The position numbers and the translations under genes are program-made. The notes under the pieces were generated by a model that had not been told where the DNA came from, searched no databases, and was given only the letters and a program-made list of their open reading frames with translations. A stretch of DNA of 64,000 nt from assembly GCF_031656915.1 (NCBI RefSeq), contig NZ_CP134227.1, positions 4,092,001-4,156,000 on the forward strand, read 5' to 3'. Below, piece by piece: positions 59,267 to 63,677 of this stretch (its first letter is position 1; every line of letters starts with the position of its first letter). The DNA is from Nocardioides marmorisolisilvae (lineage in GTDB: Bacteria > Actinomycetota > Actinomycetes > Propionibacteriales > Nocardioidaceae).

Positions 59267-60247
59267 ATGGACATCGACATGAGCATCCTGCGGATGCTGG
59301 AGCGCGAGAAGGAGATCTCCTTCGACGTCCTCGTCGAGGCGATCGAGCAGGCGCTGCTGACGGCGTACCACAAGACGCCGGGGGCCCAGCAGGAGGCGCG
59401 GGTGCACCTCGACCGCAAGTCCGGGCACGTGACGGTCCTCGCCAAGGAGCTTGACGACGAGGGCAATCCGGTGGGGGAGTACGACGACACCCCGGAGGGA
59501 TTCGGTCGGATCGCCGCGACCACGGCGAAACAGATCATGCTGCAGCGACTGCGCGACGCCGAGGATGAGCGCAAGTACGGCGAGTTCGCCGGCTCGGAGG
59601 GTGACATCGTCTCCGGCGTCATCCAGCAGGGGCGCGACCCCCACGACGTCATGGTCGACCTCGGCAAGCTCGAGGCGCTCCTCCCCCTGGGCGAGCAGGT
59701 GCCGGGCGAGGACTACTCCCACGGCTCGCGGATCAAGTGCCTGGTCGTCAGTGTGCGCCGCGGGCTACGCGGGCCGCAGGTGATGCTCTCGCGCAGCCAC
59801 CCGGGCCTGGTCCGCAAGCTGTTCGCGCTCGAGGTCCCGGAGATCGCCGACGGCACCGTGGAGATCGCCGCGATCGCCCGTGAGGCCGGGCACCGCACCA
59901 AGATCGCGGTCACCTGCAGCACCCCGGGCGTGAACCCCAAGGGTGCGTGCATCGGGCCGATGGGGCAGCGGGTGCGCAACGTGATGAACGAGCTGCACGG
60001 CGAGAAGATCGACATCGTGGACTGGTCCGATGACCCGGCCACGTTCGTCGGCAACGCCCTCAGCCCGGCCCGGGTCAGCAGCGTCACGGTCGTCGACGCC
60101 GAGGCCAGGTCGGCGCGCGTCGTCGTACCCGACTATCAGCTGTCGCTGGCGATCGGCAAGGAGGGACAGAACGCCCGCCTCGCCGCTCGGCTCACCGGGT
60201 GGCGCATCGACATCCGCAGCGACGAAGCCGCTCCGGAGGGCTCGTGA
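59267..60247 (+). CDS. nusA: Transcription termination/antitermination factor NusA
   Basis: The 326-aa protein has the N-terminal RNAP-binding domain, an S1 domain (about 110-180, [11 protein letters not shown]), and two KH domains ([18 protein letters not shown] near 225; [18 protein letters not shown] near 295). It lacks the acidic repeats of E. coli NusA, normal for actinobacteria. Confidence 0.96.
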
Positions 60248-60297
60248 GCGTCCGAACAGCACGGGTGGTCCGGTTCGGCAATCGACCCGGCAAACGG

Positions 60298-60303
60298 TAG
60301 ACT
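60298..60303 (+). promoter_or_regulatory. -10 (TAGACT) before ylxR
   Basis: TAGACT ends 9 nt before GTG 60313, suggesting an internal promoter with a very short leader. Confidence 0.4.
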
Positions 60304-60312
60304 GCATTCTCG

Positions 60313-60636
60313 GTGGCCCCCCGAACTGTGCCGATGCGCACCTGTGTTGGATGCAGGAAGCGAGTCACCAAGCGTGAGTTGCTGCGAGTGACCCTCGGAG
60401 CGGACCCGACCGGCAGGCCCGCGGTCGTGCCCGACCCGTCGGGAACTGCGCCGGGCCGTGGAGCGCACCTGCACCCCACGACCGCGTGCCTGGAGCTCGC
60501 CGAGCGCCGCCGCGCACTACCCCGAGCCCTTCGCTGGTCCGGGAGCAGCGCGCTGGCCCTCGATGAGCTGTGGGAGCTGGTCACGCTCAACAGATCGAGC
60601 GGCGGGGACGCTCGATCACCAGGACAGATCCGATGA
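60313..60636 (+). CDS. ylxR: YlxR/DUF448 family RNA-binding protein
   Basis: The 107-aa protein has the YlxR motifs RTCVGCRKRVTKRELLRV and GRGAHLHP, with a Leu/Arg-rich end. The family lies between nusA and infB and is thought to bind RNA or RNase P. Its TGA overlaps the first of the four mini-ORFs. Confidence 0.93.
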   Translation: MAPRTVPMRTCVGCRKRVTKRELLRVTLGADPTGRPAVVPDPSGTAPGRGAHLHPTTACLELAERRRALPRALRWSGSSALALDELWELVTLNRSSGGDARSPGQIR

Positions 60637-60710
60637 GTACCACCAGGAATGGGAGCAGCAGCTCATGAGCACTCGATGAGTACTAACCGATGAGCTCGTA
60701 CATCAACTAG
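60633..60710 (+). other. Cascade of four overlapping ATGA mini-ORFs upstream of infB
   Basis: Four ORFs follow each other: MSTTRNGSSSS (60633-60668), MSTR (60665-60679), MSTNR (60676-60693) and MSSYIN (60690-60710). The first overlaps the ylxR stop, and each later one overlaps its predecessor's stop, always as ATGA. All begin Met-Ser; the DNA repeats CGATGAGTAC at 60631 and 60674. No internal Shine-Dalgarno sequences are present, so ribosomes would have to reinitiate. Confidence 0.6.
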
Positions 60711-60711
60711 C

Positions 60712-60743
60712 GGTCCGCAGCATGCACTGCTCGGACCAGGAGG
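60712..60743 (+). promoter_or_regulatory. Hairpin next to the infB Shine-Dalgarno sequence
   Basis: GGTCCG-C-AGCA pairs with TGCT-CGGACC (60712-60737; one bulged C, 5-nt loop), directly after the last mini-ORF stop and adjoining AGGAGG at 60738-60743. Confidence 0.5.
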
Positions 60744-60749
60744 AACCAC

Positions 60750-63560
60750 GTGGCCAAGGTCCGAGTAAGTGAACTCGCCAAGGAATATGGCGTCCCGAGC
60801 AAGGAAGTCCTGACCCTCCTGACCGACATGGGGGAGTTCGTCAAGTCGGCGTCCTCGGGCGTCGAGCCGCCGGTCGTCCAGCGGTTCAAGGACACCCACG
60901 GCGCCGCCCTGATCGCCAAGAAGGAAGCCGCCGAGGCCAAGAAGGCCGCGAAGAAGGCGCCCGCGAAGAAGGATGCCGCCCCCCCGGCGCCGGCCGAGGT
61001 CGATGAGATCGCTGCGGCCACCGAGGCTCCGGCGGAGCCGGTGTCGGAGGCTCCCGAGGAGGCAGCCGCGGCTCCCACCGCGCCTGCGCCGACGGAGCAG
61101 GCAGCACCCTCGACGCCCTCCGCACCCCGGCCGGGTCCGCGCGTGGTGCCCTCCGCGCCCGCCGACGAGGCGCCCGCTGCTGAGGCCGAGACGCCCAGCG
61201 CGCCACCCGCCGAGGAGCCACCGGCTGCCTCGGGCCCTCGTCCTGCTGCGCCGCGCCCGGCCCCGCGCCCGGGTGCCCCGCGTCCGGGCAACAACCCGTT
61301 CTCCTCGACCCAGGGCATGGGGCGTCGTCCGTCGACGCCGCCCACGGGTGACCGCGCGGCGCGTCCGCCGGCAGCCCGTGACGGCGCCCCGGGTCGTCCG
61401 GGCATGCCCCGTCCCAACCCTGCGATGATGCCGAAGTCACCGGCCGCCTTCGGTGGCGGACCGGGTGGGCGACCCGCTCCGGGTCGCGCAGGCGGCCCCG
61501 GTGGTCGCGGCGGGGCCCCTGCGCGCGGAGGCGCTCCGGGGCGTCCCGGGGCTCCGGCCCGTGGCGGTTTCGGTGGTCCTCCGGGCGGCGGTGGCGGCCC
61601 TGCGGGCCGAGGCCGTCCCGGCGGTCGTGGCTCGACCCAGGGCGCGTTCGGTCGTCCCGGCGGGCCGTCCCGGCGTGGCCGCAAGTCGCGGCGCGCCCGT
61701 CGCCAGGAGTTCGAGCAGATGGAGGCGCCGACGATCGGCGGCGTGCGCGTCCGCAAGGGCAATGGCGAGACCGTTCGCTTGACCCGGGGCGCCTCGCTGA
61801 CCGACTTCGCCGAGAAGATCAACGTCGATCCCGCCTCGCTGGTCCAGATGCTGTTCAGTCTCGGTGAGATGGTCACCGCGACCGAGTCCGTCAATGACGA
61901 GACCTTGGAGCTGCTCGGTGAGGAGCTCAACTACGTCGTCGAGGTGGTCTCGCCCGAGGACGAGGACCGCGAGCTGCTGGAGTCCTTCGACATCGAGTTC
62001 GGTGTCGACGAGGGCGCCGAGGCCGATCTCGCCGTACGGCCGCCGGTCGTCACGGTGATGGGTCACGTCGACCACGGCAAGACCAAGCTCCTCGACGCGC
62101 TGCGCAGCGCGAACGTGGTTGCGGGCGAGGCCGGCGGGATCACCCAGCACATCGGTGCCTACCAGGTGGCCACCGAGGTCGACGGTGCAGAGCGCAGGAT
62201 CACCTTCATCGACACCCCGGGTCACGAGGCGTTCACCGCCATGCGTGCCCGTGGCTCGCAGTCCTCGGACATCGCAGTGCTGGTGGTCGCCGCCGACGAC
62301 GGCGTGATGCCGCAGACGGTGGAGGCGCTCAACCACGCCCGCGCCGCCGGGGTCCCGATCGTGGTCGCGGTCAACAAGATCGACAAGCCCGACGCCGACC
62401 CGACGAAGGTGCGCGGTCAGCTGACCGAATACGGCCTGGTCCCCGAGGAGTACGGCGGCGACGCGATGTTCGTCGACGTCTCGGCGAAGTCCGAGCTCAA
62501 CCTCGACAAGCTGCTCGAGGCGATCGTGCTGACCGCCGACGCGTCCCTGGACCTGCGGGCCAACCCCGACCAGGACGCCCAGGGCCTCGTGGTCGAGGCG
62601 CACCTGGACCGTGGTCGCGGCCCGGTGGCGACGGTGCTCGTCCAGCGCGGCACGCTGCGGGTCGGGGACTCGATCGTCGCCGGTCCGGCGCACGGCCGGG
62701 TCCGCGCGATGCTCGACGAGTACGGCGAGAACATCGAGGAGGCGACCCCCTCGCGTCCGGCGATGGTGCTCGGTCTGTCCGGGGTCCCCGGCGCGGGTCA
62801 GAACTTCCTCGTCGTCGAGGACGACCGGATGGCGCGTCAGATCGCCGAGAAGCGGGAGGCCAGGGAGCGTGCAGCGCTGCAGGCCAAGCGCAGGGTCCGT
62901 CGTACCCTCGAGGACTTCATGGCGTCCATGGAGAAGGGCGAGAGCCAGGAGCTCAACCTGATCCTCAAGGGCGACGTGTCCGGTTCGGTCGAGGCACTGG
63001 AGGACTCGCTGGCCAAGATCGACGTGGGCGACGAGGTGTCGTTGCGCGTCATCGACCGTGGTGTCGGTGCGATCACCGAGACCAACGTCGACCTGGCCGC
63101 CGCGTCCGACGCGATCATCATCGGCTTCAACGTCCGCCCGCAGGGCAAGGCGACCGAGCGGGCGGACAAGGAAGGCGTCGAGATCCGCTACTACTCGGTC
63201 ATCTACCAGGCGATCGAGGAGATCGAGGCAGCCCTGAAGGGCATGCTGAAGCCCGAGTACGAAGAGGTCAGCCTCGGCCAGGCCGAGATCCGGGCCATCT
63301 TCCGCTCGTCGCGGATCGGCAACATCGCCGGCTGCATGGTGACCAGCGGCACGATCCGGCGCAACGCCCGGGTGCGGTTGATCCGGGACGGCGCCGTCGT
63401 CGTCGAGAGTGCCGAGCTGGCCTCGCTGCGGCGCGAGAAGGACGACGTGTCGGAGGCTCGCGAGGGCTTCGAGTGCGGCCTGGTGATCAAGGGCTTCAAC
63501 GACATCAAGGAAGGCGACATCGTCGAGGCGTTCGAGCTCCGCGAGATCCCGCGGAGCTGA
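60750..63560 (+). CDS. infB: Translation initiation factor IF-2
   Basis: The 936-aa protein has an IF2N domain ([19 protein letters not shown]), a long Ala/Pro/Gly/Arg-rich linker (about 60-320), then the GTPase core: [12 protein letters not shown] (G1), DTPGHEAF (G3), NKID (G4) and SAKS (G5), with domains II-IV ending [14 protein letters not shown]. It recruits fMet-tRNA to the 30S. GTG 60750 has AGGAGG 6 nt upstream. Confidence 0.97.
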
Positions 63561-63566
63561 GGCGGC

Positions 63567-63658
63567 GACTTCTCCCAGGTTAGGAACCCAAAGGGACTCT
63601 TCACACACCGGATCTCGTGTGTGAAGAGCACCTTTGACCTCTGAACCTGGGAAAAGTC
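63567..63658 (+). repeat. 92-nt imperfect inverted repeat between infB and rbfA
   Basis: Three nested arms pair: 63567-63581 with 63644-63658 (14 of 15), 63589-63594 with 63631-63636 (6 of 6), and 63597-63607 with 63618-63628 (11 of 11), with symmetric internal loops (7x7 and 2x2) and a 10-nt loop. Base composition is more AT-rich than its surroundings. It fills most of the 117-bp gap; function is unknown. Confidence 0.7.
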
Positions 63659-63677
63659 ACTCCGGAGAGGGGCAATC

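Follow-up and report, generated by a model that had tools for sequence, protein, structure and literature searches.

Leader attenuators of the ermC and trp type use the position of a ribosome in a short upstream open reading frame (ORF) to pick between mutually exclusive hairpins. In yeast GCN4 and mammalian ATF4, several upstream ORFs (uORFs) are present, and reinitiation is limited by the supply of initiation factors and initiator tRNA. IF2 is an essential initiation factor, and the class of actinobacteria considered here includes antibiotic producers and pathogens. Autoregulation of an initiation factor has been described for IF3, which acts through a non-canonical start codon of infC, ATT in E. 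coli and ATC in Streptomyces (accessible text of PMC5472188). In actinobacteria, a conserved short uORF in the Corynebacterium ilvB leader regulates the gene that follows it (PMC10272879, available portion).

Here we describe the gap between ylxR and infB, the gene for IF2, in a Nocardioides genome and across its class, and propose that it is a translational attenuator built on three start-stop mini-ORFs, a reading to which we give a probability of about 0.5. As in termination-reinitiation coupling at ATGA sites, 4-nt stop/start overlaps join consecutive frames, but in the infB leader these frames are mostly 4-6 codons long, stand three in a row and encode nothing recognisable, and their output seems to be an RNA switch. 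As in ermC- and trp-type attenuators, ribosome position would choose a hairpin; the infB leader, however, shows no stalling codon or arrest peptide, the choice would be made by reinitiation, repeated along the chain, and the coding region of the regulated gene contains one of the hairpin arms. It does have the conserved short ORF upstream of a gene that is expected of a translational attenuator. Multiple uORFs are common to GCN4, ATF4 and, judged from sequence alone, the infB leader, which differs in its bacterial ribosomes, overlapping uORFs and hairpin output and whose target would be an initiation factor itself. The proposal resembles IF3 autoregulation in that an initiation factor limits its own synthesis at translation (PMC5472188, accessible text), but infB in the window carries the canonical GTG rather than an IF3-type start codon, and the gauge would be reinitiation, not start-codon fidelity. 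Whereas the ilvB leader, in the available portion of its source, belongs to a biosynthetic operon in one genus, the infB chain has three uORFs before a translation factor and extends across a class. The parts are of known kinds: start-stop coupling, attenuator hairpins and multi-uORF gauges. In the literature searched, with most subscription papers and preprints outside its scope, we found no description of the infB leader or of this combination of parts, and no autoregulatory element for infB.

The window, by which we mean the whole 64,000-nt stretch of DNA analysed, holds ylxR and infB with RimP and NusA as other neighbours by family models (Table 1). The ylxR product matches NCBIfam NF047356 (E 9.8e-15) with 54.4 bits, under the curated cut-off of 80. 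As the initial annotation had described, ylxR ends in ATGA and is followed by mini-ORFs of 11, 4, 5 and 6 codons, each joined to the next by ATGA (overlaps at 60633, 60665, 60676 and 60690), with a hairpin (60712-60737) and AGGAGG (60738-60743) directly after the chain. The folding energy of this region is not unusual (z 0.27). A promoter or terminator in the gap was rejected, as no promoter-like or terminator-like site was found in 60200-60800, and so was a known RNA family, with no Rfam match up to E 1 in 60200-60900. Close to its 3' end, ylxR carries a perfect 9-nt inverted repeat, GATCGAGCG/CGCTCGATC (60593-60601 / 60609-60617).

Table 1. Features of the ylxR-infB gap and its flanks, in window coordinates
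Feature	Position	Strand	Remarks
ylxR (RnpM-like)	60313..60636	+	TGA overlaps ATG of 11-codon mini-ORF
mini-ORF, 11 codons, MSTTRNGSSSS	60633..60668	+	lineage-specific, not conserved
GGAG, SD-like	60652..60655	+	9 nt upstream of conserved mini-ORF 1
conserved mini-ORF 1, MSTR (4 codons)	60665..60679	+	
conserved mini-ORF 2, MSTNR (5 codons)	60676..60693	+	
conserved mini-ORF 3, MSSYIN (6 codons), stop TAG	60690..60710	+	
hairpin A 5' arm, GGTCCG	60712..60717	+	1 nt past mini-ORF 3 stop; pairs with CGGACC, 60732-60737
shared arm CTCGGACC	60730..60737	+	CGGACC in hairpin A; all eight bases in hairpin B
infB Shine-Dalgarno AGGAGG	60738..60743	+	
infB, translation initiation factor IF-2	60750..63560	+	TIGR00487 E 4.5e-231; start GTG at 60750
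hairpin B 3' arm, infB codons 3-6, GGTCCGAG	60758..60765	+	wobble base A60764 pairs with T60731

The chain had been judged hard to obtain by chance. We scanned both strands of 464 kb, made up of 20 stretches of 20 kb from the same genome (400 kb) and the window, for mini-ORFs of at most 15 codons with ATG or GTG starts joined by 4-nt overlaps. The only chain of four was the one between ylxR and infB; chains of three numbered nine, at seven places, and with ATG starts alone the ylxR-infB chain was the sole chain of three or more. That much bears out the earlier judgement, but a first-order Markov simulation with the composition of the window and ATG/GTG starts produced, over 2.56 Mb, 9 four-member and 71 three-member chains, and one such chain somewhere in a genome is not beyond chance by itself. 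Chance is excluded because the chain is conserved, not because it is rare. The Met-Ser starts singled out by the initial annotation are present and partly forced, as ATGA fixes A as the first base of codon 2 and as the final base of the last codon.

Conservation was assessed by searching with the IF2 N-terminus, which matched in 23 of 24 genomes searched in the genus, 178 of 197 in the family, 143 of 148 in the class and 94 of 119 in the phylum; the 160 nt upstream of infB were then inspected at the genus, family, class and phylum loci counted below. A chain of at least three mini-ORFs is present at all 71 genus and family loci (23 from the genus, 9 further loci from the family search and 39 chosen regions), at 68 of 70 further class loci from 31 other families (all 30 loci returned by the class search and 40 regions chosen for family coverage) and at 15 of 15 named loci, giving 154 of 156 loci in the class, with 149 distinct leaders. 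None of the 20 outgroup loci chosen from other classes of the phylum has one. The two exceptions, L096 and L133, have three mini-ORFs as well, with 2-nt spacing at one junction; L076 shows the same spacing and reaches three only via an extra upstream ORF. The leaders therefore have the stop/start overlap or few-nt spacing of termination-reinitiation coupling. In shuffled 160-nt leaders of relatives, chains of at least three appeared in 81 of 6240, with 1-nt overlaps counted too. The comparison suggested earlier thus finds the ATGA chain at the same place far beyond the genus, with frame and overlaps kept.

Two wider searches gave a similar distribution. A degenerate chain pattern scanned over an 84,980-species collection returned 16 matches, every one titled as actinobacteria; 15 lie directly upstream of infB with the chain, and for the sixteenth (L198) the infB side falls outside the stored DNA. 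Two of the matches, L185 and L189, are probably the same contigs as L142 and L107. A covariance model (R1) covering the chain, hairpin A and the first 24 nt of infB was run with scoring of the ten top candidates in each genome. It detected the leader, about 100 nt long, in 288 of the 296 class genomes sampled and in 105 of 105 genera at E <= 0.001, once in 287 genomes and twice in one (G274). The eight genomes without a match have assemblies of 150 to 1,200 contigs. Among 149 genomes sampled from the phylum, all 13 class members that were listed matched; outside the class, among the genomes listed, three reached E <= 0.001 (best 9.2e-5), namely G405 and G432, on contigs other than that of infB, and G592. 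The chain counts are the cleaner evidence, because R1 contains infB codons.

By comparison of these leaders, the conserved unit is the last three mini-ORFs (4, 5 and 6 codons in the window), joined by ATGA just before infB. None of the other 22 genus loci shows the 11-codon mini-ORF as a unit, so that the four-step chain originally taken as a unit is reduced to its last three steps. Mini-ORF 2 is 5 codons long in 129 of the 149 distinct leaders and otherwise 3, 4, 6 or 10, with the overlaps kept, and mini-ORF 3 is 6 codons long in 106. The 298 junctions among the last three mini-ORFs comprise 283 ATGA, 11 GTGA and four 1-nt overlaps, a count limited to loci selected for a chain of three and so a description of the junctions. 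Mini-ORF 2 starts with GTG in 10 of the 149 leaders; by family, the change from ATG to GTG occurs at 8/8 loci of f4, 2/7 of f15 and 1/2 of f29. Where the first ATG is lost (families f17, f19 and f2), an upstream in-frame GTG or ATG takes its place, and in four genus loci (L014, L019, L020 and L024) a 15-nt in-frame insertion extends mini-ORF 2 to 10 codons with the ATGA chain kept.

These start swaps, in-frame replacements of lost starts and frame-keeping changes of length point to selection on start-stop chaining itself, and the leaders leave us nearly certain that the chain is selected. An RNA or DNA motif alone is disfavoured, as the letters change while such substitutions preserve the chain, and peptide products are disfavoured, as amino acids vary outside the positions forced or favoured by the ATGA context. 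Because the peptides vary, start and stop positions rather than products appear to be kept. Beyond the ATGA context, AGC or AGT is common as the second codon of the mini-ORFs, and CGA as the last. Neither a conserved arrest peptide nor a rare-codon run, as in a stalling leader peptide, was seen in the 149 distinct leaders.

Entry into the chain and its distance to infB differ in how far they are fixed. An SD-like string precedes mini-ORF 1 at 107 of 156 loci, and 49 lack any string tried; among 102 leaders with a 4-codon first ORF, G stands at -13 in 83 and at -12 in 89. Over the 145 of 156 loci scored, the distance from the ylxR stop to the first junction varies between -14 and 207 nt, and entry from ylxR is therefore not constant across the leaders. 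From the third stop to the infB start, as placed by tblastn, the distance is 33-63 nt in 147 of 149 distinct leaders.

Two hairpins can be drawn downstream of the chain. In hairpin A, the segment after the third stop pairs with the segment before the SD; in hairpin B, this second segment, now two bases longer, pairs instead with infB codons 3-6 and encloses the start site. Since they share one arm, the two are mutually exclusive. A GGYC-like string starts 0-5 nt past the third stop in 125 of 149 distinct leaders. We aligned 63 of 77 chosen leaders, so that the percentages describe the typical form; the 14 rows left out (L129, L076, L096, L123, L133, L082, L090, L093, L091, L024, L065, L058, L033 and L066) are mostly those whose tails are long or divergent, and all four of the f4 loci chosen are among them. 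Hairpin A was the only RNAalifold consensus structure (4 pairs), with 92.3% of cells paired and 16 double-change cells versus 5.0 after shuffling. For hairpin B, 86.3% of cells were paired versus 81.7 and double-change cells numbered 32 versus 13.5 in shuffles, 26 of them at one pair; pairs with a double change (2 versus 2.4) and extra pair types (10 versus 9.7) showed no excess over shuffles in this alignment.

Comparison of duplex energies between matched and permuted species in 54 representatives gave z -7.7 for hairpin A and -6.7 for hairpin B (each 0/1000), with -1.2 (112/1000) for a control pairing of the 5' arm with infB; over all 143 loci the values were -13.2, -11.2 and -3.0. Because relatedness inflates z, the -6.5 obtained in one run is to be weighed against the -3.4 to +3.0 of control windows (other infB, upstream, other classes) in the same run. 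Hairpin B is tested most sharply by the match between the third base of Arg codon 5, a synonymous position, and the base that precedes the shared arm. At the 114 scorable of 156 loci this pair is T-A in 33, C-G in 47, G-C in 13, T-G in 5, A-T in 1 and G-T in 1, with 14 non-pairing. When each family is represented by one locus (28 groups), the paired fraction averages 0.916 and the permutation p averages ~1e-4 (largest 0.0033). Both sides of the pair have changed in L134, L133 and members of genus g6. On this comparative evidence, hairpins A and B probably form alternatives.

Mutually exclusive structures of which one closes the start site are found in the typical form and not in every lineage. 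Hairpin B is missing or unscorable at 42 of 156 loci, 25 for want of a perfect 6-nt partner in the tested register, 16 for want of a CGN codon and 1 because it is too short. The 25 comprise all 8 loci of f4, 7 of g1, 3 of g6, f29, f30 and single others. In f4, the SD region is a possible partner for the freed arm, and when the 5' arm was masked in silico the ribosome-binding site (RBS) unpaired probability fell from 0.42 to 0.18 in one representative and the opening cost rose at 8/8 loci. In genus g1, hairpin B with infB codons is often absent, and six loci (L004, L007, L019, L020, L022 and L023) carry CCTCCTGG in the hairpin A loop, complementary to the SD CCAGGAGG, perhaps as a replacement anti-SD. 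The single locus L131 (f10) keeps the chain of three with a 17-nt tail to infB and without hairpin A, and is a natural case of the chain without the switch. The f4, g1 and f10 variants could be other ways of closing the site, or losses.

We modelled a ribosome on the third stop by blocking the 15 nt from that stop in silico in the 54 representatives. Mean hairpin A pairs fell from 5.6 to 0.3 and mean hairpin B pairs rose from 6.1 to 10.5. For the A state, each leader was fixed in its own minimum-energy fold. Opening the infB start site cost more when masked than in that state in 40 of 54, with a difference above 2 kcal/mol in 31; the means were 17.0 kcal/mol masked, 13.6 in the A state and 14.8 unconstrained, and in the Nocardioides leader itself the values were 21.6 masked and 15.8 in the A state. 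Mean RBS unpaired probability over the 54 did not fall with masking (0.56 to 0.64), because hairpin B leaves the SD in a loop. Geometry and modelled folds thus agree with a ribosome position selecting the structure in 40 of 54, and the sign they predict, repression by ribosomes on the third stop, is favoured but not secure.

These observations can be assembled into a mechanism. A ribosome would start at mini-ORF 1, via its own SD-like site or coming from ylxR, terminate after 4 codons on ATGA and restart within the overlap if fMet-tRNA and IF2 arrive before it departs; the same decision would recur into mini-ORF 3. With three successive initiation decisions, two of them reinitiations, occupancy of the third stop would depend steeply on reinitiation capacity (IF2 high, IF3 low). 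Since a terminating ribosome covers about 12 nt past the stop, one on the third stop would cover the adjoining 5' arm and block hairpin A. The freed 3' arm would then pair with infB codons 3-6 in hairpin B, or in family f4 apparently with the SD region itself, and shut the infB start site; this alternative hairpin offers a plausible output for the chain. The initial annotation had raised an autoregulatory sensing of initiation capacity by the chain, but had not included the pairing with infB codons 3-6. With IF2 low, few ribosomes would reach the third stop, hairpin A would form and infB would be open. Reinitiation through the whole chain would thereby lower infB translation, so that IF2 would limit its own synthesis.

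The steps of this scheme carry different weight. Genome comparison speaks for the chain, the retention of frame and both hairpins, whereas we infer that the mini-ORFs are translated, that the hairpins switch, with what sign, and that IF2 is the signal. We lean toward a ribosome-driven switch. Negative feedback by IF2 is a tentative proposal, at somewhat less than even odds. In E. coli, overexpressed IF2 enhances and overexpressed IF3 decreases reinitiation (accessible text of PMC2268962), so sensing of IF2 is a reasonable inference. The fullest form of the proposal, in which the leader is a class-wide bacterial counterpart of GCN4 and gauges IF2 against IF3 to feed back on IF2 synthesis via the hairpins, is the most speculative and rather less likely to be right than wrong. 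The main text of an M. tuberculosis profiling paper does not name infB in its available portion (PMC9094748).

Several other explanations share parts of this anatomy. The chain may instead hand ribosomes from mini-ORF 3 to infB, with hairpin A shortening the distance, and more reinitiation would then mean more infB output. Such overlaps do couple translation (PMC6728339; review PMC12548453, accessible parts of both), and the review, in the portion available, mentions short uORFs that deliver ribosomes. The 33-63 nt between the third stop and infB fit this account, as would hairpin A, which if formed would bring the stop near the SD, and the opening cost is lower with the 5' arm masked in 14 of 54 representatives. 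But infB has its own, well-spaced SD, the distance without the hairpin is long for coupling, and the covariation of hairpin B is left unexplained. We consider this positive relay unlikely.

A second possibility keeps the A/B switch with a signal other than IF2, such as ribosome supply, the formylation of initiator tRNA, recycling, or the slowing of initiation or termination by antibiotics. The anatomy would be identical to that of the IF2 feedback, and IF2 is not the sole determinant of reinitiation, which also depends on formylation and initiator tRNA (PMC2268962, accessible text). In 15 of the 15 pattern matches that could be tested, the chain stands before infB itself, a position that speaks for an IF2 loop, and we hold a different signal to be improbable.

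We give still less credence to a bridge on which the chain keeps ribosomes on the ylxR-infB gap and prevents a Rho-dependent stop of transcription. The gap is short, ribosomes could step along it by overlaps, and it lacks a promoter-like or terminator-like site, but coverage is not continuous, given the variable distance from the ylxR stop, and neither the hairpins nor the class-wide layout would be needed. A pure relay or bridge leaves unexplained both the covariation of hairpin B and the closeness of the third stop to the 5' arm. Finally, a decayed tandem repeat or chance, to which two copies of CGATGAGTAC in the window and the simulated chains of four might point, can be dismissed, since the chain is not restricted to one or a few lineages or missing from relatives but occurs throughout the class with differing codons and lengths, far above its frequency in shuffled leaders.

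If the attenuator reading is true, the infB leader would be the IF2 counterpart of the known self-control of IF3, achieved by a different principle. Start-stop overlaps would then be usable as a counter, and ORFs of 4-6 codons would be kept for the positions of their starts and stops and not for their peptides.

Downstream of infB, the window also contains a long palindrome (63570-63655) between infB and rbfA. The region holding it (63560-63665) folds with -58.6 kcal/mol (z -8.1). The palindrome belongs to a dispersed repeat family with 45 matches at E <= 0.001 in its own genome, often with both strands matched at one place, and is probably a REP/MITE-like element.
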